A stretch of DNA of 64,000 nt from Ceratodon purpureus (lineage: Eukaryota > Streptophyta > Bryopsida > Pseudoditrichales > Ditrichaceae): assembly GCA_014871385.1 (NCBI GenBank), contig CM026429.1, forward strand, positions 6,793,080 to 6,857,079. The letters are read 5' to 3'. The notes beneath the pieces are model-generated. The model did not search any database. It was not told the DNA's origin and saw only the letters and a program-made list of their open reading frames with translations. The translations under genes and the position numbers were made by a program. Shown one piece after another: positions 21,037 to 61,900 of the stretch. Numbering within the stretch: the stretch's first letter is position 1; each line of letters opens with the position of its first letter.

Positions 21037-22789
21037 ATGGGGAGTTGGGGCTGTGCGGATGGTGACCTTCTCACCATCCAGGGCCTCCTGGGGGCGACTG
21101 CCGGGAATGCGACGGGGCTGAGTGAATTTCTCTGCTCCAAGCTCGATGGCGTTTCTGCACAGCTCTTGGCGACCAATTACGCCGTCGACAATACCTATCT
21201 GTTGTTCTCGGCGTACCTGGTGTTTGCGATGCAGCTGGGATTCGCGATGCTGTGTGCCGGGTCGGTGAGGGCGAAGAACACGATGAATATCATGCTTACG
21301 AACGTGCTGGATGCTGCGTGCGGAGGAATCTCGTATTATGTGTTCGGGTATGCATTCGCGTTCGGAGTGGGAGGTTCCACGAACGGGTTCATCGGCCACT
21401 TCAACTGGGGGCTGAGCGGCGTGCCGAACTCGACGTTCGATTACAGCTTCTTCCTGTTTCAGTGGGCTTTTGCGATTGCGGCGGCGGGTATTACGTCTGG
21501 GTCGATTGCGGAGCGGACGCAGTTCGTGGCGTACCTGGTGTACTCGTCGGTGTTGACGGGGTTCGTGTACCCGATCGTGTCGCACTGGTTGTGGTCTTCG
21601 GACGGGTGGTTATCGGCGTCGAAGTCGGTTGGGCCGGGATCGCTGCTGTTCGGGACCGGAGCGATTGACTTCGCGGGAAGCGGTGTGGTGCACATGGTGG
21701 GCGGGATTGCCGGGTTCTGGGGGGCTTTGATCGAGGGGCCTCGCATTGGGCGGTTCGACAAGTCGGGGAATTCAATGATCTTCCGGGGTCACAGCGCGAC
21801 GCTGGTGGTGCTGGGGACGTTCCTGTTGTGGTTCGGATGGTACGGATTCAACCCGGGGAGCTTCGTGAAGATTTTGGTGCCGTATGCCGGGTCGACGTTC
21901 AAGGGTGCGTGGAGCGGAGTGGGAAGGACAGCGGTGACGACGACGTTGGCGGGGTCGACGGCGGCGGTGACGACGCTGTTCGGGAAGAGGCTGTTGGACG
22001 GGCACTGGAACGTGCTGGACGTGTGCAACGGGCTGTTGGGAGGGTTCGCGGCGATCACGGCGTCGTGCGCAGTGGTGTCACCATGGGCAAGTATCATCTG
22101 CGGATTCGGGTCCGCCTGGGTTTTGATCGGCTTGAACAAGCTTGCAGGTATGGATTGTTAACATTTGAAATTTGCTGTCATTAAGTTTTCTGTTGCTCTT
22201 TCTTTATTATCCGTTTACGGAGTTGCATTGGAATAGATACGGGAAGACGATGGGTCGGATTTTCTTCAATCAGTCTTATATTGAAGAGTTTAAATTCATT
22301 CTTTGTTGTAAGGTACGATGATCATCGGTCATTTTTGAGTTAACCCCTTCATTATCTGGTTGTGAATCTGCAGCTCGTTTGCATTTCGACGATCCTCTGG
22401 AAGCTGCGCAGCTCCATGGTGGGTGCGGAGCATGGGGGCTTCTCTTCGTGGGGCTATTTGCTGAGCAGAACTACGTGCAACAGATTTACGGTGGGGATCC
22501 AGGAAGACCCTACGGTTTGTTCATGGGAGGTGGTGGCAAGCTCCTAGCGGCCCAGATCGTCGAGATTCTTGCAATCACCGGGTGGGTGACTGTGACGATG
22601 GGCCCTCTGTTCTTTGCCCTGCACAAGTTCCGTTTGCTGCGTATTACCCCTGAAGACGAGATGGCGGGTATGGACGTTACCCGACATGGAGGCCAGGCCT
22701 ACATTCACGCGGACGGCTCCGAGCACATGATGCACATGAGCACCATAAACGGCGACAAGAAGCACAACAACCAGACCCCTATGGTCTGA
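21037..22789 (+). CDS. AMT1: AMT1-type ammonium transporter, copy A
   Basis: Two exons, 21037-22147 and 22374-22789, with a 226-bp GT-AG intron (phase 1), encode 508 residues, the usual length of plant AMT1. AMT proteins move ammonium across the plasma membrane as trimers with 11 membrane helices per subunit. Visible marks are the AMT signature [13 protein letters not shown]...GPRIGRF, the first pore histidine in that motif (HMVGG), the second in LHGGCGAWG of exon 2, and the cytosolic tail with GMDVTRHGG. The Thr of that tail (about T473) corresponds to the phosphorylated Thr that closes Arabidopsis AMT1;1 trimers (T460). The start MGSWGC is shared with copy B, in the same 'ggtagacagg' leader. 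Exon 1 is almost identical to copy B while the intron is unrelated. Confidence 0.95.
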
Positions 22790-28699: not shown

Positions 28700-30237
28700 G
28701 CCTAAAGTCCATTACAAACTTCAATGTTAGAAACAACATTGTGTCGGTATCTTCTTTGTAATGGAACCTATTATCATTTGTGAAAAAATCAAGATATAAA
28801 AATAAATAAGTTAGAAATTGATTCCCACACAATACTTTATAGTACTCCTTCATTATGTATGACTTTTTGTTTTTATGATGATTCACTTCAATATTTAGAA
28901 TTGTTTAAATTTATCAAAAACCTATCCATGTGCATCTAAAATTTGGTATTATTCTACAGATAGTATACATATAAATATTCAAAATTTGTAAAACTTCTAC
29001 ATTTGCATATCTATCAAATATGAATGTTTATGTTTTATAATCCATAATTATTTGAAATATTTTAGAACATCAAAAAATTAGTATTGATCAATCTAATGAC
29101 TGTATTTAATTGATTGTATATTGTTAAATTAACAAATTTCTTTGTTCAATTCGAACTGTGTCAAATCACTTGGTGACCTAGATCAATAATTAACCATGTA
29201 GAAGAAAGCATGAAAATCTTAGTTCATATTTTAAAAGTAAAAAATGGTTCATTTTTTTATGAACTGAGTTTTGTTAAATCAAAAGTAAAATCTACATGCA
29301 CCAATGTTTTGCCATGTTATTTTATTTTATAAATTTTGATGGTAAAATTATTAAAAGTGATTGGGTTATTTTTCAAATTGTAATTTTGTAAGTTCAATTA
29401 GAAAGTGTAATTTTAGTAATCCAATTTATTTTAGAAAGTTATAATTTTCCTTGGAGGTATCAATATCAATAACATAACAATTAGATCTACCCTCTACAAA
29501 AATATAGTAGCTTCAATCTCAAACCTTAAAATATCATGGATAAGTAGTAAAGTCACCATTTGCTTCAAAAAAATTAAAACATATATATATCATTGACAAA
29601 ACCAAGGAAAAACAAAAAAAAATATATTGAAAGAACTTCAAAACGAAAGTTCCACCATGTACAAATTAATCTCCACATTACACAAAAATAGAATTTGAAT
29701 CTCCATATCACCCAGCACAACTAAAGTTTCTTAAAATTTCCACAACCCTAACTCAATCCCACGTCGCCCTAAACCTCAGTTAAAACTCAAAAATCTACTA
29801 AAAAAGCCTCAAAACGTGACACAACTCGACTCAACACAGACACTTCCGCATGGACTTCCACCTCGCAGTAAAAATAACGAAGATGCGCCGTAAACCCGCA
29901 AACCCTGACGGAATGCAGAACGAGCGCCTGGGAATGATTGCCGCTGCAGCCTGTGCTCGTCAGGCGCTCCTTGGTCCCGCTCGATGCGCCCTCCCTCCGA
30001 CCCACTTGCTGCCAATGAGTCGACTCGCAAGTCACAACCAATCTGTATCACACAGCCTGGGGTGTCCGCAACCAGCTCCTGGGGCTGCAAGACCTCACCT
30101 TGTCAGTCACTTTGTCGAACGCTAGCATTGTCTGCAGTCTCACGGATTGAGTTGCAGGAGAGAGGTTGCTCGGGAGTTGTTCTGGTAGTTGCAATTGTGG
30201 TGGAGTTTGAGAGGGAGTGAGTCGGCTGGTAGACAGG
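28700..30237. other. Upstream region of second AMT1 gene
   Basis: 28.7-29.7 kb is very AT-rich and featureless. From about 29.8 kb the composition rises in GC and gives overlapping frames on both strands (29787-30125) without domains, probably promoter and 5' leader of AMT1 copy B. The last 20 bases (ggctggtagacagg) match the leader of copy A. Confidence 0.4.
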
Positions 30238-32179
30238 ATGGGGAGTTGGGGGTGTGCGGATGGTGACCTCCTCACCATCCAGGGCCTCCTGGGGGCGACG
30301 GCTGGGAATGCGACGGGGCTGAGTGAATTTCTCTGCTCCAAGCTCGATGGCGTTTCTGCGCAGCTCTTGGCGACCAATTACGCCGTCGACAATACCTATC
30401 TGTTGTTCTCGGCGTACCTGGTGTTTGCGATGCAGCTGGGATTCGCGATGCTGTGTGCCGGGTCGGTGAGGGCGAAGAACACGATGAATATCATGCTTAC
30501 GAACGTGCTGGATGCTGCGTGCGGCGGGATTTCGTATTATATTTTCGGTTTTGCGTTCGCGTTCGGGGTGGGGGATTCCACGAACGGGTTCATTGGCCAC
30601 TTCAACTGGGGGCTGCGGGGCGTGCCGAACTCGAGCTTCGATTATAGTTTCTTTCTGTTTCAGTGGGCTTTTGCGATTGCGGCGGCTGGCATTACGTCCG
30701 GGTCGATTGCGGAGCGGACGCAGTTCGTGGCGTACCTGGTGTACTCGTCGGTGTTGACGGGATTCGTGTACCCGATCGTGTCGCACTGGTTGTGGTCTAC
30801 GGATGGGTGGTTATCGGCGTCGAAGTCGGTTGGGCCGGGGTCGCTGCTGTTCGGGTCTGGGGCGATTGACTTCGCGGGGAGCGGTGTGGTGCATATGGTG
30901 GGCGGGATTGCCGGGTTCTGGGGGGCGTTGATCGAGGGGCCTCGCATTGGGCGGTTCGACAAGTCGGGGAATTCAATGATCTTCCGGGGTCACAGCGCGA
31001 CGCTGGTGGTGCTGGGGACGTTCCTGCTGTGGTTCGGATGGTACGGATTCAACCCGGGGAGCTTCGTGAAGATTTTGGTGCCCTACGCGGGGTCGACGTT
31101 CAAGGGTGCGTGGAGCGGAGTGGGAAGGACAGCGGTGACGACGACGTTGGCGGGGTCGACGGCGGCGGTGACGACGCTGTTCGGGAAGAGGCTGTTGGAC
31201 GGGCACTGGAACGTGCTGGACGTGTGCAACGGGCTGTTGGGAGGGTTCGCGGCGATCACAGCGTCGTGCGCAGTGGTGTCACCATGGGCAAGTATCATCT
31301 GCGGATTCGGGTCTGCGTGGGTTTTGATTGGATTGAACAGGCTTGCAGGTATGCCTTTTGGAATTTCCAATTACTGTTGCCTCTTCGTGAGTGTCTTTAA
31401 TGTGCTCTGTCTGCCTAGTCGCATGTATTGTTATTTAGATTTAGCGAGTAGTGAAGGAAACAATGAAAGTTTTATTAGCCTGTTCAATTTACTATTGGCT
31501 GTATGTCCTTTTTTTCTTTTTCTTTTTTCTCTTCAGAAGTCCGACTAGAGCAAGTTTCGTCTTTTCTGGTTGTGATTGTAGATTGATTATACCTGTTTGT
31601 TACATATTGTTCTTGAAATTTCCGTTTCTGATGTGTTTTATTTTCTGCATTATGCTCCCATCTTTCAGACCCTTGGCTGTATACTTACTGTAAGACTAGA
31701 GCGGATGAACCATAATGAATTATTAATTTACATACATTGATCATCTTTGTGATTGTGAGTGTGCAGCTCGCATGCGTTTTGACGACCCTCTGGAAGCCGC
31801 CCAGCTCCATGGCGGTTGCGGAGCGTGGGGTCTTCTCTTCGTTGGACTATTCGCTGAGAAGAACTACGTCCTGCAAATCTACGGTGGCACCGACAGACCA
31901 TACGGTCTATTCATGGGAGGTGGTGGCAAGCTCCTCGGAGCCCAGATCATCGAAATTCTTGCAATCACCGGGTGGGTATCCATTACCATGGGCCCTCTCT
32001 TCTACGCCCTACACAAGTTCCGTCTGCTGCGCATCACCCCCGAGGACGAGATTGCAGGCATGGACGTTACCCGACACGGTGGCCAGGCCTACATTCACCA
32101 GGACGGCTCCGAGCACGTAATGCACTTGGGCACCATCAACGGCGAAAAGAAACCTCACAACAACCAAATGCCAATCTAA
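30238..32179 (+). CDS. AMT1: AMT1-type ammonium transporter, copy B
   Basis: Two exons, 30238-31348 and 31767-32179, separated by a 418-bp GT-AG intron at the same position and phase as copy A, give 507 residues. I chose the ATG at 30238 (MGSWGC) because it matches copy A. It carries the same signature ([13 protein letters not shown]...GPRIGRF), both pore histidines ([14 protein letters not shown]) and the regulatory tail GMDVTRHGG (Thr about 472). Exon 1 has the same 1,111-bp length as in copy A and is about 96% identical by eye. The start of exon 2 is only about 84% identical and the introns are not alignable. The extreme C-terminus also differs (HNNQMPI versus HNNQTPMV). It is the downstream member of a tandem pair in the same orientation, so subfunctionalised ammonium uptake is plausible. 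Confidence 0.95.
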
Positions 32180-34190: not shown

Positions 34191-34928
34191 GGGGGCAAGC
34201 ACAATAAAGTGTACCAAAAAAGTGCTTAACTATTTGACAATTTCAGCCCTTCTTATAAACACTCAAGAAAGTGGGATCTAAGTTATGTTGATTCAAAATT
34301 TAGTTATGGATTTCAAAAATAGACTTGATTCTCTTGAACTTCCCAAATGTGCGAGACAAGACATCGAGGTTTAGAAGTGGAACGGATACCGCGAAGTCGG
34401 TTCAAGTGAATGGGATTATTTGCGAAAGTGAAGAGAAATGTTTATGGATTCCTCGAAAGTCACATTTAATTTCGCTGTCCACTCCGTTCTTAAGGTACCA
34501 TTCTAGAAATGCGGGGGTTCCAACAGTTTGGACCCATAAAGTGTACCAAAAGTACCGTCGTGACGTTTTCTGGACACTGTTTTGGGCGAAACTTTTGGGG
34601 CTCTTCCCTTCAAATATTGTGGTGTTCAAATGCTCAAAAAATAATTTTCTGATGTTTGCAAATGGTCGGGAAAAAAAAAAGTGAAAAAAGAACATCTTCA
34701 TTTTCATGATTTAGAACTAGCGGTCAAATTAAGTTTCAATTGAAGATGTTTTTCTTGTGGAGATGCCTGTAAGATACCTTGTGACACCTTAAAAAGTGAC
34801 TAAAATGCTCAAAAACTACACCAAAATGCTCAAAATCAGCTTTGAGCCTTAAAAAACAGCACACTTCATATTCACTTGTTGGTGGTCACATGTTGCACTT
34901 TGTGGTACACTTTATTGTGCTCTCCCCC
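34191..34928. mobile_element. 738-bp non-autonomous element, copy 2
   Basis: The ends GGGGGCAAGCACAATAAAGT and the inverted ...tttattgtgctctccccc match copy 1. Flanking direct repeats are GGTA (34187-34190 and 34929-34932). Length is exactly that of copy 1 (738 bp), and long interior stretches are shared, for example aaaatgctcaaaatcagctt. The two independent insertions with different 4-bp duplications define the boundaries firmly. Frames on both strands in the middle are chance. No transposase is encoded. Confidence 0.85.
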
Positions 34929-35015
34929 GGTACGGTTATTTGAAGCACAATAGAATGTTAGAAAAGGAATGGGAACAATTCAATGCATTATAAAAAAGCT
35001 AAAAAGATAATATAT

Positions 35016-35080
35016 TGCCCAATACAGGTCTCGAACCTGTGGCCTTCGCGTTATTAGCACGACGCTCTGACCAGCTGAGC
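35016..35080 (-). pseudogene. tRNA-Ile(AAU), 3' part of a gene split by a LINE
   Basis: On the minus strand this piece holds tRNA positions from the D-arm (GCTCAGCTGGTCAGAGC) through the anticodon loop CUAAUAA (anticodon AAU), the T-arm ACAGG-TTCGAGA-CCTGT and the 3' acceptor strand ATTGGGC plus discriminator A. A T-run terminator follows near 35001-35005. The adjoining upstream bases belong to the LINE and do not pair with the acceptor strand. The missing first nine bases (GCCTAATTA) are found 8 kb away at 43155-43163, where GCCTAAT pairs with ATTGGGC over all seven positions. The gene is therefore interrupted and presumably dead. The B box survives. Confidence 0.9.
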
Positions 35081-35124
35081 CAAATACCCCCCCGGGGTTA
35101 AAGAAACTGATAAACATGTACAAC

Positions 35125-35197
35125 GCGCCGAGGCGCAGGTGAACGGGCGGAGCCCGTGTCAAGCGCGGGGGGACCCCCGGGCTTGCCCGGGGTCCCC
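35125..35197 (-). other. Three consecutive hairpins in the LINE 3' UTR
   Basis: Three inverted repeats stand in a row close to the 3' end. At 35169-35197 there is a 13-bp stem with one bulged C (GGGGA...CCCGGGC-tt-GCCCGGGG...). At 35143-35157 there is ACGGGC-tcc-GCCCGT. At 35125-35136 there is GCGCC-tc-GGCGC. About 44 bases of unpaired tail follow to the end of the element. LINEs whose reverse transcriptase recognises a specific 3' structure carry such stem-loops instead of poly(A). The role here is inferred. Confidence 0.8.
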
Positions 35198-35369
35198 GTG
35201 CTTGGGACGCAGGGATCCTGCGGGAGAACAGGCTGAAGTACCTGGCAGCCCAGGGTCCGACAGCCTAATTAGCAACGCGGACAAGGCCGCAAATAGCCAA
35301 GGACAAGTCCCGCGATCGCGGCAGAGCCACGAAGGGAACAGTGCCAACGGCAGGAGAGCTACAAAGGGC

Positions 35370-38300
35370 TCAGGGCGACTCGCTATCTAGACGAACCTCC
35401 TGTCTAAGAGACCGAGATCTACCGCTATCTAACCTGTTGAGCCAATGCTCACGAGAAGGGTAGGAACTGTCGATGAGGCGGAACAAATCTTCGTCTTCGA
35501 TGTCGGTGTTGGCCATTGTCGAGTAGATGTGAAGTTGAGTGTCAGCGGCGAGGCGAGTGCGGTGCGCTCTGGCGTACAGGAGAAGTCTTTGTCGGATTGA
35601 GGGTGAAGGCGGCCTGTTCCTTCTCTCCTCTTCTCTTGCTGTATCTTCTCGTTCTTGGAGTCTGTCCTGTTCAAGCTCCATTCGCCATGCTTGTAGCTCG
35701 TCTTGTAAGGCCGCTTCCAGTTCCCGTTCGGTGCCTGGGCTTACGTCGTGGTACCTGTTCTGCCAAAAATATCCGCTGTGGGGATCTTGAGGGATTCTAA
35801 CCGGGGAGGGTGTTGCGTGTATAGGGATTTCCTCAGGGTTAATCTCCGCAGCATCAACATTGGCGTTGGCGACGCGGAATAGTTCTGCGATAGCTGCTTC
35901 GAGGTGCGGGGGAGGCGGCTGTGGGCCTTCCTGTCTTCGTGCGATTTCCTGCGATACAAGATGCGGTGGCGGTAGCAAATTCCAGGTGGGTTCATCTCTT
36001 GTTGGGTCTTGAGTTGTCGATGCGAACACCTGGTGTCTCGACCATGTCTTGGTGAAGAGTAGGTTCTTGGCTTCTTGTATGTTCGCAGGTCGTTGGTGCT
36101 TCTGAAGCTCTCGCCAGGCCTCCATTCCGATATGGATGGTGGTCTTCCATGCCTTAAAGAGGACCGTGCCTGTGTGGTATTGTGTTGCGTCCCTGTCATA
36201 AGCACACTTTGCGCACCAGATGTTCCACATGATTAGCGTTCTTAGAAGGAGCCATGGAGTGTCGGGGTTAACCTTAACCGAGTCTGTCAAGTCCCGAGTT
36301 GCTGGCCGAGGGTTGTGAAGAGAGCCGTAGAGCACGTCCTCCCACCGTGTGAGGGTCGGTTGGTTGGCTTGCGAGCAGAGGTTGTTGTACTTTACCCAGG
36401 CTAGGCATGTGTGCGGACACTCCCAGAAGGCGTGTCGAATGGTTTCCAAGGTATGGTTGTTGCACAAGGTACAGTTACCGTCTTGGTTCATAACGCGGCG
36501 CCATGCTCCGACTGGGATCCCGCCTGAAAGAACGAGCCAGCGCATGGCTGCGACTTTCCGGGGGAACCATGGGTGCCATAGGGCTTGGTAGAAGGCCTTG
36601 CAATCGGCGTCGTTAAAATTATGCTGTCGAAGAAGGGCTTCGCCTTTCAGAGGGGCGCCGTCTTGTTTAACTTTGAGACGATATCCCCTCTTAGTTGTGT
36701 AGTTGAAGAAGTTTGTAACGGGGAGGTCGCCCTGGGGGTTCCACGTCCATTCTTGGGGATCGATGGCGAGCTTGAGGATGGGTTGGGAACCGGCGATCCA
36801 TAGGGTGAGGTCGGGGCTCACTGCTGCAGCCGGGTTGAAATCCTTGAAGATTCCTGACTGGCCGATTCGGGTGACCACTCTCACTCTCTGGACTTCTTGG
36901 TCGCCGATTTCGATGGGGCCAGAGCCCACCTCCAGGAGCTCTTCTGAGTCGAGGACGATAAATTTGTCACCTTGAAGGACCCCGGAGGTGAAACTCCGAA
37001 TGTGAAAGATTTCAACAATTGGACCTCTGATGTCTGTAGTCCACCAGTCTCGGGGCGAATATGGGCGGGCGTTTCCAGGATCCCAGGGGATGCTCCTGAG
37101 AAGGAGTTCCCGTTGATTTTCCACCAGCCGGCCACCTGTGAATCGGGTGAGTGTTTGGGCTGAGTGCCAAACACGCTGATCCTCGTCCCACAAGTCGCCT
37201 ACCGTTCGGAGGAACTTGCGTGCCCATAAAGCATACCGGTCCTGGCTTCCGATTCTCCACTGGACACCAAGGGCGTCTGTAAGGAGAGAATTGCCGAAGA
37301 GAGGCTGGCGCTTAATTTCGTCGTGGTGCTGTGGAGGATTGTGAGAGAGGCCCTCTTGAAGTCGCTGCCAAGCAATTCGGGCGCTGTTCCAAAGGAAGGA
37401 CCCTGAGGGCTCGACTGGAAGTTCGGAACCGAGGAGCCAGTGGGAGCTTCTAAACCAGAGGCCCCCGCGCTTTAGTTGAGTGGCGGATACTCGGTGGCGA
37501 ACCATAATCTTCCAGGGCTCAAGTCCTGGTGAGAGTCCTCTGGCTATCAGCTTGGCAAGAAGTGCTTGAGCTTGAATCTCCGGATCGAAAACCTTTAGTC
37601 CTCCACTGGTCACGGGCTGGATTACGGTAGTCCACTTAACTTTAGCCCTGGTCGTGCCTTCAATCACTCCGCTCCAAAGGAAGTTTCGGACGAGGGCTCT
37701 AACCTGAGTAAAGATCTTGCTCTCTATGCTTGCACAAGAGGCTATAAACCAGATGGAAGCTAAGATTACTTGGTTAATTACCATTGCTCGTCCTGCCAGG
37801 GAAAGTTTTCTTGGTCCCCATTTAATAAGTTGACCTGTGATCTGCTTGAGAACCTTGGCACCACTTTCTGAGGGGGGCATTCGGAATCCAATGGGGAAGC
37901 CCAGATACCGAACTGATTTGCCCTCCTCTATCCAGGTCAGGCCGTGTTCTGTTCCCCAAGTGATAGTCCTCGGTCGTCTTGACGCCCAAATTGCTGATGT
38001 TTTGTGGTAGTTCACTTTTGCTCCAGATGCGGCACAATAGCAGTCTAAGACTTTCATCATGCGGTGGAGGTTCGCAGGCTCTCCGCGCAGGAACAAGGAA
38101 GTGTCATCCGCAAACATCAGATTTGTGAGGTAAGATTTATCGGGCATCTTGAGACCCTCTATCTTCCATTTGGGGTCGTCGAGCATATAACCTAGGGCGT
38201 CAGCTGCGAACAGAAATAAGTACGGCGCCAGGGGGCAGCCCTGGCGCACGGATCTCTCTAGGTTAAAGACAGGTCCATGCTCTCCGTTGAGAGTGATCGA

Positions 38301-40280
38301 AGCTGCGGAGCTAAGGTTCAAGGACATGATCACGTCGATCCATTTGCTAGAGAAACCTAATTTCTCCATAGTGGCTCGAAGGAAAGTCCAGCTAATCCTG
38401 TCGTATGCTTTCTCGAAATCTAACAGAAGTAGGACTAGGTCTTGATTACTCTCTTCGGCCCAAGTCATTGCTTCGATTGCTAGAAACACGTTGTCGAAGA
38501 TGCATCTTCCCTTAACGAAGCCTGTTTGGGATTTCCTTATCCATTTGGACAGGTTGGGCATCATTCGATTGGCTAGCATTTTCGCAATGATTTTGTATAC
38601 CGATCCTAATAGGGAAATGGGTCGGTAGTTGGGAATGAGAGAAAGGTCCCCTGATTTGGGGACTAAGACAATGTTGCTCGTATTTAGCTTAGTTGGGAGA
38701 TGATTGGTTGCCCATACCTCCCGGACCAGCTCGATTAAGTCGAGTTTTGTGCCTTCCCAACAGGTTTGGAAGAATTCCGTGGGCACCATGTCTAGGCCTG
38801 GGGTTTTCCCTGAGGGCAAACTCTGCAAGGCTGAAAGGACTTCGTCGTGTGTGATCTCCTTTTCAAGCTCCAGGTTTTGTTCGGGAGTCACTAGCCTCGG
38901 GGTACTCTCCAGGCAAAGGTTGCGGGCGGCTATATTTTCCTCTACGGTTGGGTCTTTGGAGTATAGGTTACGGTAGAAGGATTGAGCGAAGGTTGCCATA
39001 TCTGGCTGCTTGGAGAGAATTCGGCCGTTGTCGTTGAACTCTCGAATTCTAACCTTCTTGTGCCGTTTGCCATGATGAGAGAAAAATTCGGCACTACATC
39101 GGTCCCCAACACGGGTCCACTTGGCTGAGATGGCATTGAATTGTTTCTCCAGACGCTTATGACGGATCTGGGCTAACTGAAGTTGAGCCTTGTTCAGATT
39201 CTCTCTGGCTACTGGATCCTGCCAATTGGACTCAAGGTGCTCTTCGGCAGTCATCAGCTCAGTGATCTGAGCCTGGTAATGTTCCTTCCATTCTCGTCTG
39301 CTCTGATCAGCTATTGCTTGATTTTTAGATTGGACTGCCTTGAGAGCTAAAGCCACTCTGTCGCACCAAGAGTGGTTAGGGAAGTCGTCAATGGTCTGTC
39401 TCCAGACTAGGATTAATTTCGCTCGTCCTTCCTCTGAATTCAGCTGGCGAAGGTCAAAGAAGGTGGAGCGGGGGAGTGGCTTTCCCCGAGGTTTGAGCTT
39501 CAGAAAAACAGGTGCGTGGTCTGAAATTGATGGTTGGGTCGGCCAGATCCCTGTAAGACCGCCCCTGTTTTGGAGCACTGAGCTGATGTAGATTCTATCG
39601 ATACGAGTGAATACTGTACGAGGAGGGTCTCTGTCGTTGTTCCAGGTATAAAGCTTCTTGTTGATCTTCCGGAACTCCCCCATGTGGAAAGTATCTTGAA
39701 TTCCAAGCTTGATAACTAGGTTATTCCAAGCTTCTATCTCTCTAGGGCCACGTCCGGTTGATCTGGTCCCCCCTAATTTGTCATCAAGAGATTCTACGAA
39801 GTTCAAGTCGCCCCCAAGGATCCAGTGGGCCTCGGGGAGGTTGAATTCGAAAATCTTTTGCCATAGGCGGGCTCTGGGGCCAGTATAGCTATGACCATAG
39901 ATATTGAGGAGCCCTACTTTCAGTTTAGGGGTTAACCGAAAGGTGACGAATTGGGCTCTTCCTCGAACGATAACTCCGTGTTCCACAATGTTGTCGGAGA
40001 TTTTGCTCGAGGTTAAGATGGCTGTGCCTCCAGCTAGGCTGTCTTCTTCGGCTGAGTAATAGGCTTCATTCCAGAGAATGGAGCCTTGAAGGAAATTGAG
40101 CTGATCGGATCTACTAAGGCAGTTAGGTAAGGTTAGGCGGTGTTCCTGTAGAAAAATGATCTCGGGTTTGGGGTGAGAGTTTAGGAAAAAATCCCGTAGC
40201 TCTCGTCGTTTTCTCACCCCGTCCAGTCCCATGCCTAGACATTGGACGTTGTAGGAGGCTAGCGTGAGGTCGTCAGACAT
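35370..40280 (-). CDS. LINE ORF2: endonuclease-reverse transcriptase
   Basis: 1,636 residues from the ATG at 40280. An in-frame ATG at 40322 also exists but lies inside ORF1. The N-terminus (about residues 5-265) is an APE-type endonuclease: SYNVQC, LQEHR, GGDLNF and SDHAPVF supply the catalytic N, E, D/N and DH. The reverse transcriptase spans about 535-800, with NYRPISLL, LLDFEKAYD, RQGCPLAPYLF and FADDTSLF (catalytic DD). A zf-RVT domain follows at about 1225-1295 (WHPWFPRKVAAMRW, CTLCNNHTLETIRHAFWECP). About 330 further residues, rich in P, E and R, form a C-terminal extension that I do not recognise. The ATG overlaps the ORF1 stop as ATGTCTGA, suggesting termination-reinitiation. The frame is intact. 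Confidence 0.95.
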   Translation of the reverse strand: MSDDLTLASYNVQCLGMGLDGVRKRRELRDFFLNSHPKPEIIFLQEHRLTLPNCLSRSDQLNFLQGSILWNEAYYSAEEDSLAGGTAILTSSKISDNIVEHGVIVRGRAQFVTFRLTPKLKVGLLNIYGHSYTGPRARLWQKIFEFNLPEAHWILGGDLNFVESLDDKLGGTRSTGRGPREIEAWNNLVIKLGIQDTFHMGEFRKINKKLYTWNNDRDPPRTVFTRIDRIYISSVLQNRGGLTGIWPTQPSISDHAPVFLKLKPRGKPLPRSTFFDLRQLNSEEGRAKLILVWRQTIDDFPNHSWCDRVALALKAVQSKNQAIADQSRREWKEHYQAQITELMTAEEHLESNWQDPVARENLNKAQLQLAQIRHKRLEKQFNAISAKWTRVGDRCSAEFFSHHGKRHKKVRIREFNDNGRILSKQPDMATFAQSFYRNLYSKDPTVEENIAARNLCLESTPRLVTPEQNLELEKEITHDEVLSALQSLPSGKTPGLDMVPTEFFQTCWEGTKLDLIELVREVWATNHLPTKLNTSNIVLVPKSGDLSLIPNYRPISLLGSVYKIIAKMLANRMMPNLSKWIRKSQTGFVKGRCIFDNVFLAIEAMTWAEESNQDLVLLLLDFEKAYDRISWTFLRATMEKLGFSSKWIDVIMSLNLSSAASITLNGEHGPVFNLERSVRQGCPLAPYLFLFAADALGYMLDDPKWKIEGLKMPDKSYLTNLMFADDTSLFLRGEPANLHRMMKVLDCYCAASGAKVNYHKTSAIWASRRPRTITWGTEHGLTWIEEGKSVRYLGFPIGFRMPPSESGAKVLKQITGQLIKWGPRKLSLAGRAMVINQVILASIWFIASCASIESKIFTQVRALVRNFLWSGVIEGTTRAKVKWTTVIQPVTSGGLKVFDPEIQAQALLAKLIARGLSPGLEPWKIMVRHRVSATQLKRGGLWFRSSHWLLGSELPVEPSGSFLWNSARIAWQRLQEGLSHNPPQHHDEIKRQPLFGNSLLTDALGVQWRIGSQDRYALWARKFLRTVGDLWDEDQRVWHSAQTLTRFTGGRLVENQRELLLRSIPWDPGNARPYSPRDWWTTDIRGPIVEIFHIRSFTSGVLQGDKFIVLDSEELLEVGSGPIEIGDQEVQRVRVVTRIGQSGIFKDFNPAAAVSPDLTLWIAGSQPILKLAIDPQEWTWNPQGDLPVTNFFNYTTKRGYRLKVKQDGAPLKGEALLRQHNFNDADCKAFYQALWHPWFPRKVAAMRWLVLSGGIPVGAWRRVMNQDGNCTLCNNHTLETIRHAFWECPHTCLAWVKYNNLCSQANQPTLTRWEDVLYGSLHNPRPATRDLTDSVKVNPDTPWLLLRTLIMWNIWCAKCAYDRDATQYHTGTVLFKAWKTTIHIGMEAWRELQKHQRPANIQEAKNLLFTKTWSRHQVFASTTQDPTRDEPTWNLLPPPHLVSQEIARRQEGPQPPPPHLEAAIAELFRVANANVDAAEINPEEIPIHATPSPVRIPQDPHSGYFWQNRYHDVSPGTERELEAALQDELQAWRMELEQDRLQEREDTAREEERRNRPPSPSIRQRLLLYARAHRTRLAADTQLHIYSTMANTDIEDEDLFRLIDSSYPSREHWLNRLDSGRSRSLRQEVRLDSESP

Positions 40281-42612
40281 GGTCTGAGGAATCTGGGATA
40301 CCGCTAGCAAGGGTCTGCTCAAAGTAGACCAAGGGAGGCTGCATTTCTGCGGTGGGCGGCTCGTCTTGATAGTCGTATCCTAAAAGCTGTACCCACTCTG
40401 AGTGTTGGAGTCCTCGAAGCCTCTCCAAAATTGGAGTGTTAGGGAGTCCTAGAGAAAGCTGCAGAGGTTTCCAGTAGGCCGACTGCTGCTTCTTAATTGC
40501 TGTAGACTCCTCCTTGAAAGGGATGATTGCGAGCCATTCTGAGACGTAGGCGTTAGGTTGCTCTCTCCAGCCCGAGGTCCAGATGGCGTCTTCCCAAATT
40601 CTAAGGGGGTTGGGTCCACTATTTCGGTTGGTGATCTCTTTCCGAAGAACTTGCATGGTAGAGTTGACCAAGTGGGACTTGGCTGTGTTCGGGGACCATG
40701 TCGACTCACCTCTTGTTTGCTCAATATGGACTGTGCAGAGAGGGGAGTCGTTCTCTTTGCGGACTAAGACTTCTAAGGAGTTCTCTGGAGTCGATCGGAT
40801 GAAGATGGGAGTGATGATTCCATGAGTCGGCTTCGATGAGTCTTCGAGGTCAGGGGTTGGATAATCTACGAGAGCTCTCCAAAAATTTGGGTGGATGTCG
40901 GAGGTATTGTAACCAACCGGTTGGTTACAGAGCTCCGACGATTCACCGGGTGTGTTTGTCTGTTGTAATTTCTCTCTCCAGACAAAGGTGTGCTTCGGTT
41001 TGGGAATTTGCCAAGGGGCCGAGGGACTTGATGGAGCTGGTTCAGGAGCTAGGGTAGGCTTCTTGAAAATTCGATGGGAATTATCATCAGCCTTATGTGA
41101 TTTCCCTCGCTCTCGTTTCCTGTCCCCGTCCAGTCTCGGTTGAGGGCAATTCTTCACGTGGTGATCAGCACTTCTACAACGGCTGCATTGGGAGGGGAGT
41201 CCGCTGTATTCTAACTTGTATTCAAGCTCTTTCCCCCCTTGGATTCCTGGTAGGATTATGCTAGTTGGAAGTCTAGAGAGGTCGTCAACTAGGAGTCTTA
41301 CCTTGGGTCCTGCCGCTCTAGTGCAGTAGTTGTCTCCGTCGTCAACCCAGATCACTTCCCCTATGTTGGTGAATATTTCTGTAAGCAATTCTGTGGATCT
41401 AAGGGCTCTGCGAAGTCCTACTACCTGTGCCCAAATGGGGAAGATGAGATTGGTATCTCCCTCAGTTGAGCCTGTAGGTTTAAAATCTGCCCTCCAGGTT
41501 GTAAACTGGATGAGCTGATTGTGTAGGCGATGCTGCCTAGTAAGAGTGTTGAGTTTCCCAAATTCACTGGAGAATTGGATCTCAAAGAAGCCCCCTCCTA
41601 GCATGGTAACCGAAGAGTATGAACGATGAAGTGTGTGGAGCGCCCAATCGTGTAATGCTCTCGGTCCTGGATTCTTCTTTAGGTATCCTATTAGTGAGTG
41701 GGATTCCTCTGTGGCGACCTGGTCTTGAAGTTTGAGTAAAGTTTCTGCTTTCAGCTCTATCCGGAGTGCCTTGGTTTTAGGCTGCTCTGGTTCTTGAGAG
41801 GGGCTGCTGGTTGCTGAATCTGCTTGCTTGGTCTCTGCGATGGTTGTGGGCGCAATGCCACAAATCTCTAAGAGACGGGAAGGGTCCGGCTTGAGATCTC
41901 TGGCTAACCGAGAAAGCTCCTCTTCCCGCGAACGCATATGAACCAAACCGAGCTGAGGGTTTGCTAGGATGCATTTCTCTGCTTCTTCCCATCTGCTGTG
42001 AACTAGCGATACTAGACTGTCTAGCATTCTAGAAGCCAGATCTTGCGTGAGAGACAGGAGCTGGTTCTCACCTGAGTGACCTTGCTGCGTGAGCGATGGG
42101 GTCGTTGGGGTGTGAGCCTGCGTTGGCGTGAGCTGAGGGCGGGGTTCGGGCTGAGTGAGCTGAACGTCCGGCTCCTCTTGAATTGGTGGCAGTGGGTTGC
42201 CTGGGGAGGCAATAGGGCTGTCTTGGAGCATTGGTTCTGGCGGCGCTTCTGTGAGGTCTCCTGCAGGTGAGAAATGGAGCTGTTGAATCTTGAAGTCACC
42301 CAGAGATTCCTTAGAGGACGTGCCAAGACTGCTAATGCTGTCCTCTGAGATTTCGTCACTACTCTCTGATAATATCGTGATTGGAGTGTGATCGACTGTG
42401 ATGATTCTGTTTCTGAGAGAATACCCTGAATCACTTGAATTTTGCACGCTACTAGGTCCAGCCATTCGGCGTGTGATATTCTCTAAACGCTTATCCATAA
42501 CTCTTCCTAAGCTCTGTCTACTGCTACCTGTGGGTTCTGCTGCGACCAGAGAGGGATTCTCTGAAAGCGCTCTAACCCGGTCGGTTACACTCTTCCCTCT
42601 CGACTTAGCCAT
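40273..42612 (-). CDS. LINE ORF1: nucleic-acid-binding protein with CCHC knuckle
   Basis: 779 residues. The first ~200 are S/P/T/Q-rich and disordered-looking. A globular section at about 310-450 resembles the DUF4283-type domain found before zinc knuckles in plant LINE and gag-like proteins. A CX2CX4HX4C knuckle follows at C476-C479-H484-C489 (CSRCRSADHHVKNC), then a basic RKRERGKSHK patch and a long C-terminal half without recognised domains. In LINEs, ORF1 protein coats the RNA and helps target-primed reverse transcription. The start MAKSRGKS at 42612 is the first ATG of the frame. The stop at 40273-40275 overlaps the ORF2 start. Confidence 0.9.
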   Translation of the reverse strand: MAKSRGKSVTDRVRALSENPSLVAAEPTGSSRQSLGRVMDKRLENITRRMAGPSSVQNSSDSGYSLRNRIITVDHTPITILSESSDEISEDSISSLGTSSKESLGDFKIQQLHFSPAGDLTEAPPEPMLQDSPIASPGNPLPPIQEEPDVQLTQPEPRPQLTPTQAHTPTTPSLTQQGHSGENQLLSLTQDLASRMLDSLVSLVHSRWEEAEKCILANPQLGLVHMRSREEELSRLARDLKPDPSRLLEICGIAPTTIAETKQADSATSSPSQEPEQPKTKALRIELKAETLLKLQDQVATEESHSLIGYLKKNPGPRALHDWALHTLHRSYSSVTMLGGGFFEIQFSSEFGKLNTLTRQHRLHNQLIQFTTWRADFKPTGSTEGDTNLIFPIWAQVVGLRRALRSTELLTEIFTNIGEVIWVDDGDNYCTRAAGPKVRLLVDDLSRLPTSIILPGIQGGKELEYKLEYSGLPSQCSRCRSADHHVKNCPQPRLDGDRKRERGKSHKADDNSHRIFKKPTLAPEPAPSSPSAPWQIPKPKHTFVWREKLQQTNTPGESSELCNQPVGYNTSDIHPNFWRALVDYPTPDLEDSSKPTHGIITPIFIRSTPENSLEVLVRKENDSPLCTVHIEQTRGESTWSPNTAKSHLVNSTMQVLRKEITNRNSGPNPLRIWEDAIWTSGWREQPNAYVSEWLAIIPFKEESTAIKKQQSAYWKPLQLSLGLPNTPILERLRGLQHSEWVQLLGYDYQDEPPTAEMQPPLVYFEQTLASGIPDSSDHV

Positions 42613-42760
42613 GATCCGAAAAAAACGGATCTCTAAGAACTCACAAACTGCTCAAAAATCGAGGTGAATCGATGCGAAATGGTCTCCTAGAGATGCACCA
42701 CGCAATGCCGACTGTTGCATACAGATCTTGTGAAAGGAAAAGCTCTAAAACATACTGTCC

Positions 42761-42839
42761 TGGAAATGCGGAATTCAAACTAGGATGCGGCTCCGAATTT
42801 CACGGAGCTCCTCCGCTCTTCCATTTGAGCTACACCCCC
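42761..42839 (-). other. tRNA-like sequence in the LINE 5' UTR
   Basis: Read on the minus strand, GGGGGTG-TA-GCTC...GAGC-G-GAGGA resembles a tRNA 5' half, closest by eye to plant tRNA-Tyr (GAGCGGAGGA, then later CATCCTAG). GTTTGAATTCC looks like a degenerate B box. The 3' strand CATTTCC plus A can pair with GGGGGTG, using three G-U pairs. The variable region and T-stem are missing or mispaired and a GCTCCG...CGGAGC hairpin sits in the middle, so it is not a functional tRNA gene. It may be a captured tRNA relic or an internal Pol III-type promoter for the LINE. Confidence 0.45.
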
Positions 42840-43138
42840 GTACGGTCTTCATTTTTCCAAGGCCCCACCGAAGCTCGGAGGAGGTGCCCTGAATTCTTGA
42901 AGACAGGATGACCTTTCGGGAGAGTTTTGAAAATTTATATGCTTCCAAGCAATCACAACGCAGGTACAAATCTCACGAAAATGCCCGGACACGGGAGGTG
43001 CCAGATTAGATTCAAACGGCATGCTCACTCACACACCACAGTTCCACTAGCTTAGCAGGGGTTGCTCAAAGGGAACCATCCCAACACACCGCCACCCCAT
43101 CACACTGCCAACTCCAACACATTCCAGCACCAGTGTTC

Positions 43139-43163
43139 CTCTGACCAGCTGAGCTAATTAGGC
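43139..43163 (-). pseudogene. tRNA-Ile(AAU), 5' part of the split gene
   Basis: The minus strand gives GCCTAATTA followed by GCTCAGCTGGTCAGAG, that is tRNA positions 1 to about 25, ending exactly where the LINE begins. The last 16 bases are the target-site duplication and recur at the other end of the LINE. GCCTAAT is fully complementary (one G-U pair) to ATTGGGC of the 3' part at 35017-35023. The A box is retained here. Confidence 0.9.
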
Positions 43164-57252: not shown

Positions 57253-58886
57253 CCTTGCAAGATGTTGTCAAATAGCTTGTGTTTTTTTCGAACAATATGT
57301 GTTCACTGCATCCTAAAGAACTGTGCCACAATTTAGATGGTGTTACCCAATGATCAATCCATAGTACTTTTGCTGACAAATTGATTGATATTGGATGCAG
57401 GAGTAGAGTATAGAAAAGACATTGGAGGAACACTGCGGATGGAATTAAAAAGCAGCAACACTTAATAATTTGACACAAATGTATTTTCACACAAGCATGC
57501 TCAATAATGTCAAATGATTTATATGTAAAATTTGTACTTCCAAACAAATGGTCTGTGATCATAACTGGATGGTACCCAACTCATGCAACCTTGTTATATA
57601 TGTCAAGATCTACTTACATATTCAATGCATTCTACACCAAGAATCTGAAGGGGAATGAAAAATATCCTTCACCCAAACAACCTAATTGAATACATGTACC
57701 AAGGAAGGAAAATATTGAAAACATGAAGTCTTGGAAAATATTACTATGCATTACTGGCTGTATGCGAACATCTAATCTCCACATGGGCTTTGGCTACAGT
57801 TTAGAACAAAAAGCAAGGAGAACCATGTGGAAGTTATACCTAGTAATGACACAATTGAAAATGTTCTTTGATCTGTCCAACATTGCGCACATTTGCCTCA
57901 ATTCTCACATTCGCCTTAATTCTCACATTTGCCTCAATTCTCACACTTGCTTCATTTCCTGACTGCAGTTTGCAACCCTAAAATGAGAGTACAGTGCTCT
58001 GTACATTGGGGCCCATCCAATTGCCTTCTCCTCCCATCATCATTATGATCACACTGTATGTTCATAGTACAGAAAATGATGCCATGCATGTAGCAAGTGG
58101 ATTCTCCACCCACAAATCAATTTAACTTTGATGACCATCCCCTATGCATGCATTCCTCCTCCATTTGCATTGTACCATTTTTACAATGTATTAAGGGTGA
58201 TGTACCCAATATGGTGGGTCGTCGGAAATGATCTCTAACTATTCAACCTAAAATGGTTATGATAATATGAACACCGTTACTTTCAACTAAAAAAAAAAAA
58301 TGGTTATGATAAATTTATGCTACAATCTTCATTGGCAGTTGGATATATGACATTACTATGTCCATTTTGGGTGTTTTATCATCTACATTTTTGCCACTTT
58401 TATTTTGTACTTTAATCATTCAATAAATATGATTTTATTTTATGATTTTATTTTATGAGACTAATTTTTGTTTGAACCCACATAACCAAATTAGAGTTCT
58501 ACATCAAAATTGAAATGTGATTTCAAGTTGTCAACTAGAGCTGTGATTTGGAATTATAAATTCAAGATGTTAATTCATTTGATGAATTCAAAATAACATC
58601 CTATTTCAATTTGTAAAATCAAGATGAAGTTCTATGAATTTATAATTTTATTTATTTTTTCATAATTTTTCGTAAAATTGATTTTGATTTCAGCTCACAA
58701 ATTTAACTTGCAAATAAATTTATAAATTCAGCAGCTGCTCCTCTGAGATTGTAACCTAAAATAATTAATTTTTTATTTTATTTTATTTTTATCTTTTAAC
58801 TAGTGGGACCCGAGCCATTGAGCAATTGACGTTAGTTTAATGTTAAGAACTTTTACGGACTTCATATAAGTTGATTCAAAAAAAAA

Positions 58887-58890
<4 letters not shown>
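57253..58890. other. Intergenic region upstream of the phosphatase gene, with an 18-bp minisatellite
   Basis: No gene recognised. At 57891-57944 an 18-bp unit, atttgcctcaattctcac, occurs three times with two base changes in the middle copy, followed by a degenerate fourth. The rest becomes AT-rich toward 58.9 kb. Confidence 0.5.

Positions 58891-58970
<80 letters not shown>
58891..58970. repeat. (AT)40 microsatellite
   Basis: Forty uninterrupted AT dinucleotides, preceded by an A-run and tttat. It lies just beyond the 3' side of the Helitron helicase relic. It is likely to be length-polymorphic and hard to assemble. Confidence 0.98.
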
Positions 58971-58975
<5 letters not shown>

Positions 58976-58992
58976 TTATTTATTTGAAAAAC

Positions 58993-61900
58993 TTAAATAT
59001 ACATTGTTCTTGTCGATATAATAATGATTTTTTTATTATTAGAGATCTTATAAATGAAATAATAAATTAATTCAATAGAAAATGCAATTTCGAAGGAAAA
59101 AAATAGACAAGAAATTGAAATTGGAAATGAAAATGAAAATGAAAAGTAGAATTTTTGTTGCAAAAAAATTTTATGGTAAATAACATTGACATTGTTGGAT
59201 ACTATACTATTTTGTGGAAACAAAGCTGCAATATGATTGGAAGAAGTTGCTCTTGAAAGTGCAACATATAATTGTCCATAACAAAAAATTGAGACTTTAA
59301 TATCTAATCCAACATACTCTATAGATTGTCGTTGGAACTTGTCCATTGTCATAGCAAATGCCAATTGCACTGGATATTACCGCCTAGTGAAATGGAATTG
59401 CAATGCAGTAAAAGAAGGAGTCAAAGAAATCCGTAAATAAAAACGTGCTCGCCTGTATGCGGACTTGAAAGTAAACGTGCTTCTAAAACATTGTACAAAA
59501 AGCGGGTGAGAACCATTTTAGCTCCATTACAAGTCCATGTTTTAGAGTAAGGTTTTGCAATAAAATGTTAAGACATCCAATTTTCAAATCAAGTTTTGCC
59601 AAAGGAATGCAAGATAAATTGCAATTTATCTCCTTGTTGATTAAATCAACATTTGTATTGCAAAAACTCAAAATTGTTCAATCATGGAAATATTGATCTT
59701 CATGTGAAGATATGTCGTCAGTGTTATTGTAGATGTTGTCAATAAGAGATCAAGCAAAGGAAATGATATTCATGCAATTATACAATTGAATCACACCAGT
59801 GTAAATCCTAGGATTTTTGGTTTGGTGCTAGGGTGGCCACAAAGAATATTATAGGAGCGAATTTTAGGCTTCATCAATTTTTTTTATGGAGAAGTTCTTT
59901 GGCAATCCTTGTTTTTTTCCCACTAATTTCAAGTATTATGTAGTATTATGTAACTAGACACCTTAAAAGGAGTAATTTGTTGGGAGAATGATGGCTCCAT
60001 CCAACTTACCTGTTGGGTAATTTCTGGCTTCGTCGAATCAGTAATTTCACGACTTTATAGCCAAATATAGGAAATTTCTATTTTTATTTCGCCTTCTGGC
60101 AAAATTTTGCCACCTAAATAAACACTGGAATCACACTGCTACTTGAATCATCAAAATTAGAGCCATTGCCTGCTCATTATAGCCATTGTGCAAATTCCCT
60201 ATTTTCAAGCGATGAGTTTTGTAAGGGCATATTGATGGAAAGGGCCAAGATCATAATACGTTGCCATATTGTAAATTTGCAAAAACATGCTCCAATAATT
60301 TGAGGTCTAGAACCTTTTCAAATAATTGGCAGAATATATCGAAAGTCACCTCTAAATACAGCACTTACACCTTCGAAAGGAGGATTTGAACCACAAATGT
60401 CTCATAGTGATCGATCTACTATTTTTGCACGATGTTGGTATTGCATAGGAAATTCATCTTAAATAATTAAAGAAGCCTTACAAAACACACCCACATATTC
60501 AAAAAAATTGTATATAAAGCATATTGAAAATTTATCAACTTCAAAAGAAAATTTTGAAAGTAGAAAGCATTGTGCGGCGTTCATGAAGAAGAAGTACAAC
60601 AATTCCTGAAGAGCCAGCACATACAACAATTTTCACTTTGCTTCGCACATTTGCAACCACAATATTATAGAGAAATGTATTTTTTGTATCAACAAGACCA
60701 TTAACAAAAAAAGCAACACCAAATTGGTCCTCAATGGAACTGAGAATGACATCATAACTATAGTATTGATTTCCATTGAGTTGTAACTTTTGCTCTTGAA
60801 GATAAGGTTCAAGTTCCTCAAGATTCTATTGTAGTTGTTCATTAACAAATCGATTACCACAATGATAAGACCAATTTAGAGTTGATATTGCTATGGAAGC
60901 CTGAAAAAAACAAAAAATAGGCTTTTGTTTGATTGTTCACGTAATATTTCATCAATGAAGGAAAAGCCATAATTGTATTCATTTTCTTCAGTTGGTTCAG
61001 ATAAATCATAGTATTGGCGAAGATAGTGTGATGCAAGTCATCACACAAATGAGGACAAAATTATTATTATATAACCTTAGGATGAGTAGAATTGCATTCT
61101 GAGAGTATGAGCACAAACAAACTGCGCAATGATGCACCGATACACATAGTAGATGCTTCTTTTAAGCAATGAATCCACTCTCGATCATCTTGAAATAAGC
61201 CTAAAGCATTACATGCATCTTTAAAGGTTTTGTGTATTATTCCGTTCACCGTCCGTAGATCTTCAAAAGAACAAGGTCCAGGAATAGTTATTAGTAAGAG
61301 TCCCAAATAAAAACGTTTACTTTTGCTAAACTTGCAAAATACAACCTACCAATTGCAAAGCTTCTTTCACAAATTTTCCATGTGTTTTCTTAAATTCTCC
61401 AAACATAATATTGGGAAAACTCTTAATAGGTCAATCAATATGCATTTTCATCTCTAACACACATCCTAAAGAACTCTATCAATCTAGTTCTTTGAAATTG
61501 GCCACGATTCCAAAAAGCCTAAGGATCATTGCTGGTATTGAAAATCATACAATGCATCCTTAGCAAATGTAAATATAGCCAAACGACATTGGGATCTTCT
61601 TTGTGCATCTTCTTCTTAAATAAACGCCGCTCAACCTTTGATACCTTAATGTAACGAGCATCAAGGTATTGTTTGATCTCATCTTGTTCCTCGTCAATCT
61701 TCATTGACGTAGCCCTGACATGACCCTTATAGATGTATTTATGGATATATTTAACTACTTGAATAGATGCGCAAAGTTCAATATTAATATGGTAGTCATT
61801 CTTTTAAATGAAATCACGTCTGTACAAAACAATCTAGTTATTGTTGAAGAAGAATCAGTGTTTTTCAAAACTACATCCATCATCGCAAAATGATAATAAA

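Follow-up and report, generated by a model that had tools for sequence, protein, structure and literature searches.

A 64-kb stretch of DNA from the moss Ceratodon purpureus (the window) carries a minus-strand L1-type LINE with intact ORFs that interrupts a tRNA-Ile(AAU) gene, and this is very probably a young, full-length LINE from a moss branch of the plant L1 elements that inserts inside Pol III-transcribed RNA genes by target-primed reverse transcription. Its target duplication, the perfectly repeated 16-bp CTCTGACCAGCTGAGC, occupies 35065-35080 and 43139-43154, with 8,058 bp between the two copies and no third copy on either strand of the window. When the flanks are joined after removal of one copy, ARAGORN reads them as a 74-nt tRNA-Ile(aat), whose missing first nine bases lie outside the right copy at 43155-43163 and whose acceptor strands pair at all seven positions, one of the pairs being T-G; in each of these points, from the duplication to the acceptor stem, the original prediction was borne out. 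Rfam gives a tRNA match of 45.5 bits at 35016-35089. The prediction had also considered that the 16 bp might be part of the element itself; they belong to the target, because the duplications of other copies carry different tRNA sequences. The features of the locus are as follows, the numbering within tRNAs, and in several cases the anticodon, having been assigned by eye.

35001-35005, minus strand: T run immediately beyond the 3' end of tRNA-Ile, a likely Pol III terminator (sequence)
35016-35064, minus strand: split tRNA-Ile(AAU), 3' part, nt 25-73 (sequence, ARAGORN)
35065-35080, minus strand: target duplication, 3' copy, sense GCTCAGCTGGTCAGAG, tRNA nt 10-24 (sequence match)
35081-35099, minus strand: LINE 3' terminus AACCCCGGGGGGGTATTTG, a short hairpin without poly(A), relatives having similar tails (sequence)
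35081-35369, minus strand: LINE 3' UTR (sequence)
40280-35370, minus strand: ORF2, with endonuclease, reverse transcriptase (RT) and zf-RVT, likely ATG at 40280 (open frame, Pfam)
42612-40273, minus strand: ORF1, 779 aa, with a DUF4283 domain and, by eye, a CCHC-like motif (open frame, domain search)
42613-42814, minus strand: LINE 5' UTR proper, with a 5' hairpin at about 42787-42814 by eye (tRNA-Cys copy alignment)
42815-42839, minus strand: fossil of the first 25 nt of tRNA-Ala(UGC), the target of the previous generation (sequence match)
42840-43138, minus strand: tRNA-Ala(UGC) upstream flank, transduced (95% identity to two C13 loci)
43139-43154, minus strand: target duplication, 5' copy (sequence match)
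43155-43163, minus strand: tRNA-Ile nt 1-9 (sequence)

The open frame listed for ORF2 is 1,650 aa long (40322-35370) and begins at a TTG at 40322, while the reading frame from the likely ATG shares, as judged by eye, its first 8 bp with the end of ORF1. Its Pfam domains are an apurinic-type endonuclease, an RT and a zf-RVT (PF03372, PF00078 and PF13966), and its best PDB match is the LINE-1 ORF2 protein (9.7e-58). This EN-RT-zf-RVT arrangement and the DUF4283 ORF1, the latter usual in plant L1s, are shared with plant L1-clade LINEs (ME1-3). In a FastTree phylogeny of 84 RT segments, which included neither Tx1 nor vertebrate L1 elements and from which five too-short Azolla loci were left out, one clade unites the window element with three moss copies from tRNA genes and 41 metagenome proteins (45/45, local support 0.90), and it is placed beside Azolla L1s under midpoint rooting. 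By its domains and its RT grouping, the window element is an L1-type non-LTR retrotransposon of the land-plant branch. A search with ORF1 yielded one metagenome relative, and of 34 stretches in viral contigs that matched one or the other of two peptide patterns, none encodes a relative.

The targeting extends across a family. An ORF2 census found 28 copies including that of the window; the 3' end could be read in 22 of them, of which 16 lie inside Pol III RNA genes, namely those for tRNA-Ile, Cys, Lys, Ser, Val, Pro, Met and an Arg-like tRNA and for 7SL, the 7SL copy having a Plant_SRP match of 144.6 bits at its junction. Independently, a genome scan for the conserved 3' tail placed 23 of 62 tails next to a tRNA remnant, against a background of 0.00615 per flank (0.6%), or about 0.4 of 62 expected, and 0/62 on the opposite strand; the other 39 tails do not stand at an RNA gene recognised by our half-tRNA finder. 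Rfam misses several split tRNA remnants, and those calls come from this finder or from inspection by eye, which together were the sole assessment for 34 of 54 tail flanks. Copies are inserted in the tRNA sense orientation with exact duplications of 10-19 bp, and where both sides could be read the duplication lies within a tRNA or 7SL gene in 14 of 15 copies, the copy at C1:12086254 having a 17-bp duplication at a non-RNA sequence. The nearest relative, in a tRNA-Cys gene, is 75% identical, has two internal stops and shares the tail and the |GCTCAG junction of the window element. The targets therefore go beyond tRNA-Ile, each subfamily cutting at a short word of its own that in most cases falls within the D-arm/A-box. 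Thus, of the plant LINE lineage predicted to target the tRNA-Ile D-arm, the D-arm lineage stands through its repeated junctions, but the restriction to tRNA-Ile does not, since other tRNAs, 7SL and other cut positions are used. Intact 3' ends at unrelated sequences, which the prediction had named as evidence against itself, do occur in some sister subfamilies (6/22 ORF2 copies, and 20/25 tails of the ...GGGGATTTT subfamily, which is mostly off RNA genes), but not in the window's own tail type, where 6/6 adjoin GCTCA and 5/6 score as tRNA, two of the six having identical flanks.

How the target is chosen admits more than one reading. It is quite possible, though we lean the other way, that active Pol III genes draw in the element through their machinery or open chromatin, the endonuclease then setting the exact site; this would explain why Pol III genes are hit more than other sequences containing those short words, but the off-target subfamily suggests that no more than the word may be needed. 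Tethering of the element to Pol III machinery in place of DNA-word recognition, as for Ty1, Ty3 and TRE5-A, would fit the observation that all identified RNA-gene targets, including 7SL, are Pol III genes, and TRE5-A is described in the cited passages as requiring the B box (PMC5911963). We nevertheless regard it as improbable, since insertions fall inside the gene at base-precise words, whereas tethered elements are described as inserting beside genes; one word, moreover, serves at different tRNA positions (AGTTGG is cut at one place in Val and another in Met and Lys, T|GGT at one place in Pro and another in Lys, Ser and Ile), and many insertions at non-RNA sites retain the word CAAGTC. B-box words occur in 5 of the 39 tail flanks that did not score as tRNA and in 1/39 on the other strand, against a 3.6% background, these numbers being small. 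That an ordinary unspecific plant LINE struck one tRNA gene by chance could be entertained from the single event in the window and because plant L1s are usually unspecific, but the census and tail-scan counts speak against it, and the identical junction words re-used by independent copies at tRNA genes already refute it.

The first 324 nt of the element (window 43138-42815) are transduced host DNA and not LINE: the alignment to the tRNA-Cys copy begins at element nt 321, and nt 2-325 are 95% identical to the upstream flank of an intact tRNA-Ala(UGC) gene on C13 together with that gene's first 25 nt. Two such flanks match (C13:13768990-13769274 and C13:13764606-13764890), and at both an intact tRNA-Ala follows immediately; this is a 5' transduction, and it shows that the parent element sat in a tRNA-Ala gene. 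Shorter tRNA fossils stand at the front of some sister copies, and a single copy has three consecutive tRNA-Ser 5' halves, its present target and two fossils. An A box and a B-box-like word in the window 5' UTR (p ~0.008) had raised the possibility that the tRNA pieces are parts of the element, as a SINE-like head or Pol III promoter, but this reading is refuted to the point of near certainty, since the flanking tRNAs differ between copies with matching 5' and 3' halves, and Rfam gives no tRNA in that 5' UTR. A tRNA-like promoter there was likewise discarded: of the two boxes, the A-box part comes from the transduced tRNA-Ala and the B-box-like word from the LINE 5' UTR.

Under the favoured reading of word recognition and target-primed reverse transcription, the ORF2 endonuclease of each subfamily would read a short DNA word, for the window element on the strand opposite |GCTCAG, and reverse transcription would start at the 3' hairpin, perhaps aided where tRNA sequence gained by read-through pairs with the primer strand at the nick. 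The element RNA would have its start upstream, within the host tRNA locus or close to it, such that flank and tRNA 5' half could be copied along. We give even odds to a broader proposal, in which the endonuclease of a plant LINE clade radiated over Pol III genes with one subfamily per DNA word, and in which elements with little promoter of their own are transcribed from the occupied tRNA locus; jumps may then carry pieces of the old target, making the 5' ends a readable host genealogy (Ala to Ile, Ala to Cys, Lys to Ile, Val to Met, repeated Ser).

Keno is a member of the Tx1 clade, whose elements, like the moss family, are APE-type and target-specific. Keno targets U2 RNA genes and, as far as the source passages go, is not found outside animals. 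The dictyostelid TRE5, TRE3 and NLTR-A/B elements are likewise described as LINEs directed to tRNA genes, and the ORF2 of TRE5-A and TRE3-A as having an APE-type endonuclease, RT and zinc finger like that of the moss. According to the cited passages, however, dictyostelid elements insert beside tRNA genes, about 50 bp upstream, about 100 bp downstream or 2-6 bp upstream (PMC5006619, PMC5911963), whereas the moss family keeps no such set distance outside the gene and inserts within it at base-precise junctions. The planarian LINEs LIN15_SM and LIN25_SM are described as specific for tRNA-Arg and tRNA-Glu genes, but are NeSL-related, from animal hosts and treated in a paper on restriction-like-endonuclease elements (PMC4640811), while the moss element is L1-type with an apurinic-type endonuclease. 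Dada elements, with lineages per tRNA, are described as inserting inside tRNA genes, the A box (nt 8-13) being one main site and the putative duplication (PMC8869645); these are DNA transposons, and the moss LINE uses the same spot convergently. Our literature searches listed no plant LINE inserted within a tRNA gene, and at 20 loci tested (18 L1 loci of a Trichormus (cyanobacterial) MAG, which most likely stem from Azolla, plus two further loci) no tRNA was found by ARAGORN (0/20), which would miss split tRNAs, or by Rfam (0/11 scanned).

Target-specific LINEs are described, in the literature passages used here, from animals, amoebae and other protists. Here, in one genome, the target word has shifted within a branch of land-plant L1s, from one tRNA or 7SL gene to another, with a sister subfamily mostly off target, and the evolution of target choice is therefore directly testable, through related endonucleases with differing words and fossils recording an earlier target. 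Gene insertion may also profit from such endonucleases and RNA tails, which put kilobases at set tRNA sites in plants.

The 3' tail sets the family apart from flowering-plant L1s, as does gene-specific insertion: all 14 of the junctions listed have a hairpin-type tail without poly(A), whereas flowering-plant L1s are reported with poly(A) ends, and the cited passages describe a 3' stem-loop in one maize/sorghum L1 lineage (PMC3747384). That the LINE 3' end mimics tRNA nt 1-9 (5/9 matches) was rejected, because the tail is the family hairpin, which precedes many targets. The 3' UTR also contains GCTAATTAGGC, antisense to tRNA nt 1-11, a match that is probably due to chance (p 0.18 over the whole element, 0.006 within the UTR).

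Two copies of CTCTGACCAGCTGAGC (35065-35080 and 43139-43154; no third within the window) enclose 8,058 bp carrying two long, unbroken open frames, with a candidate ORF2 ATG at 40280 that by eye gives an 8-base overlap with the ORF1 stop:

42612-40273, minus strand: ORF1, 779 aa, DUF4283
40322-35370, minus strand: ORF2, 1,650 aa, with Exo_endo_phos, RVT_1 and zf-RVT

Joining the flanks minus one copy of the repeat restored a 74-nt tRNA-Ile(aat), confirming the original prediction of a LINE inserted in a tRNA-Ile gene with a 16-bp target duplication. Element and gene share the same orientation, and the 64-kb window holds no second copy of the LINE. At the 3' junction the A and B boxes are perfect but 3 of the 7 acceptor pairs are gone, so that, judging from sequence, Pol III could transcribe the split gene but would be unlikely to yield a functional tRNA. 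Losing one such gene would be bearable, because the moss holds many tandem tRNA-Ile copies. A 91% identical repeat (34697-34928 and 17191-17421) has one copy adjoining the split gene.

The 16-mer has 38 matches in the 362-Mb assembly (151 contigs, the window being C9:6793080-6857079; C-numbers denote its contigs). Of these matches, 29 belong to a tandem tRNA-Ile array of 627-bp period (C11:7680659-7732274) or its surroundings; at least two LINEs of the window lineage sit in the array. The 38 include three more tRNA-Ile genes (loci L029, L030 and L034) that each carry a related LINE (38-44% ORF2 identity). Since this search is biased to tRNA-Ile, we made two further searches without tRNA sequence.

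A genome search with the ORF2 protein gave 28 scored copies, including the window's, from 1,488 first-look candidates; 28 is thus a lower bound. A Pol III RNA gene stands at the 3' end of 16 of these at least 28 copies, or 16 of the 22 with a resolved junction.

ORF2 copies in Pol III RNA genes
tRNA-Ile: window, C11:7697012
tRNA-Cys: C3:11634325, C3:11658359 (latter by eye)
tRNA-Lys: C5:18204481, C4:19862028, C8:2973232 (C8 by eye)
tRNA-Ser(GCU): C11:6619186, C9:12283023
tRNA-Val: C5:7876707, C13:2976265
tRNA-Met: C11:1885057, C13:2197365 (both by eye)
tRNA-Pro: C11:5846476
Arg-like tRNA: C12:5322424 (read and named by eye)
7SL: C8:9829830 (Rfam Plant_SRP, 144.6 bits)

The evidence for these 16 placements is of unequal strength. 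Among 26 newly collected 3' flanks, our half-tRNA scorer (anticodon arm plus T-arm) scored eight, with weak matches elsewhere too, 1 and 3 of which were wrong-strand. Rfam recognised a junction tRNA in four (two scoring slightly below threshold) and overlooked others, L052-L054, L057 and L065 among them. Two 3' ends were taken from the tail list described below. In six of the 28 copies the 3' end is visible but adjoins no RNA gene (C1:12086254, C3:7489790, C6:22856892, C9:16636239, C2:8873555, C13:4810327); for C9:16636239 and C13:4810327 a tail 5.1 and 3.2 kb downstream, in the same orientation, was matched to the copy by its position. The remaining six, left out of the 22, lack a readable junction: four show no 3' end in the stretch examined (C1:23164671, C1:23198157, C5:2905670, C12:12183198), C1:15235439 is followed by N only, and C9:6004203 lies near two tandem tRNA-Leu genes with no junction found.

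The tRNA copies read first end in a short hairpin tail (e.g. AACCCCGGGGGGGTATTTG) with no poly(A). Allowing at most one mismatch, the pattern AACCCCGGNGGGGTNTTT matched the genome 62 times, against 6 for its reversed control, and the flanks of all 62 were read. The scorer found a tRNA at the right offset in 23 of 62 flanks (12 of 17 with exact tails) and in none of the 62 when the other strand was scored, its background in random window DNA being 0.00615 per flank; seven of the 23 are copies already in the ORF2 census. Rfam, run on 20 flanks, supported a tRNA in L072, L073, L074, L077, L085 and L088 at 24-43 bits, two below the gathering score; L081, tRNA-Ser by the scorer, is absent from its results, and L078 gave a weak unrelated match.

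Tail loci at further tRNA genes
tRNA-Asn: L073, L074, L077 (named by eye except L077, GTT)
tRNA-Gly(UCC): L085, L095
tRNA-Glu(CUC): L096, L099
tRNA-Gln(CUG): L117
Decayed tRNA-Ala: L116 (by eye only)
About 20 nt of tRNA-Lys, then other DNA: L078 (by eye only)

Both searches and L029 together give 33 Pol III gene insertions (16 + 16 + 1), or 32 if L073 and L074, whose identical flanks may represent one duplicated locus, count as one.

Of 15 copies read at both ends, 14 duplicate tRNA or 7SL sequence. Exact target duplications in Pol III genes span 10-19 bp, among them GGTAGAGCGCAAGGCTCT (Lys), GGTCTAGTGGTATGATTCT (Pro), AGTTGGCTAGCGCGTA (Met) and CGTCTGTAACCCGAG (7SL); that of a tRNA-Cys copy is 11 bp exact within a longer repeat with one mismatch, that of the C9 tRNA-Ser copy 13 bp, and that of L029, a 5'-truncated LINE, 10 bp. 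In our own tRNA numbering, the word AGTTGG follows the cut at nt 9-10 in the C13 tRNA-Val and in the D-loop in Met and one Lys copy. The cut T|GGT falls in the D-loop for the majority of Lys insertions, for Ser and for part of the Ile insertions, but near nt 8-9 for Pro. Because one word is cut at different places in the tRNA, the site is likely set by an endonuclease that reads DNA words, not by a fixed spacing from some bound factor; the Pol III apparatus or open chromatin may contribute. At C3:11658359 (Cys) and C12:5322424 (Arg-like) the cut, at AGGTC, adjoins the T-arm, not the D-arm. On C3 (~11634000-11662000; L039, L040, L138), where tRNA-Cys genes repeat in tandem every 595 bp or so, two distinct LINEs have inserted, each at its own tRNA position.

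The original prediction of a lineage targeting the tRNA-Ile D-arm stands as repeated insertion into Pol III RNA genes (16 of 22) and is too narrow as a restriction to Ile or to the D-arm, given the Cys, Lys and 7SL targets and the cuts beside the T-arm. How strict the targeting is differs by subfamily, some being strongly specific and others loose. Tails of the window element's type show strict targeting: GCTCA adjoins 6 of 6, and 5 of 6 have a scored tRNA. In the ...GGGGATTTT subfamily just 5 of 25 tails adjoin a tRNA, and by eye the copy at C1:12086254, which lies in no RNA gene, is flanked by a 17-bp duplication (TGTCTAGTATAAATTAA). Many non-tRNA sites of ...GGGGATTTT still start with CAAGTC, a word shared with the tRNA-Gly, Glu and Gln sites, so that the tail itself may supply part of it. 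T-arm-like GTTCGAATC words in the flanks of two non-tRNA insertions (L066 from ~1960, L070 from ~1430) are perhaps a tRNA-derived SINE.

The window element aligns with the tRNA-Cys copy only from element nt 321 onward, which predicted that nt 1-324 are the upstream flank and 5' half of a tRNA-Ala gene. Element nt 2-299 have two further genome matches at 95% identity, an inverted pair on C13, both continuing directly into an intact tRNA-Ala(tgc); the match ends at nt 325, the end of the tRNA-Ala D-arm. The element's parent thus sat in a tRNA-Ala gene, and its RNA, begun about 300 nt or more upstream, was copied into tRNA-Ile. Shorter fossils are also apparent: read by eye, a copy now in tRNA-Ile appears to carry a tRNA-Lys piece at its 5' end, one now in tRNA-Met a tRNA-Val piece, and the tRNA-Cys copy a tRNA-Ala-like piece; one Ser copy, also by eye, has three serial tRNA-Ser 5' halves, the present one and two fossils.

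Among the best 120 of 161 matches in a protein search, 43 close metagenome relatives (36-46% identity, at least 686 bits) precede the next match at 266 bits and 27%. The 41 of these 43 with a long enough RT segment cluster with the moss copies in an RT tree (local support 0.90), with Azolla L1s adjoining. Titles and abstract openings of mostly top-ranked papers in the open-licence literature yielded no plant LINE inside tRNA genes. Of 20 loci found, 18 (L001-L014, L016-L019) are L1 LINE contigs of a cyanobacterial Trichormus MAG, most likely DNA from Azolla, its host.

Elsewhere in the window, 58861-58998 forms an inverted repeat (about 135 bp, self-complementarity 83-88%), and two ammonium-transporter genes stand in tandem at 21037-22161 and 30217-31548, sharing 95.5% identity over 1,144 bp. 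Among the best 120 of 3,805 matches, moss AMT1 proteins are the most similar, and we take the host to be a moss, though not Physcomitrium; for the 30217-31548 gene the most identical named ones are from Physcomitrium patens (86-92%) and Sphagnum (80-84%), and two longer records from flowering plants, Fraxinus (69%) and Gossypium (75%), rank high by bits.
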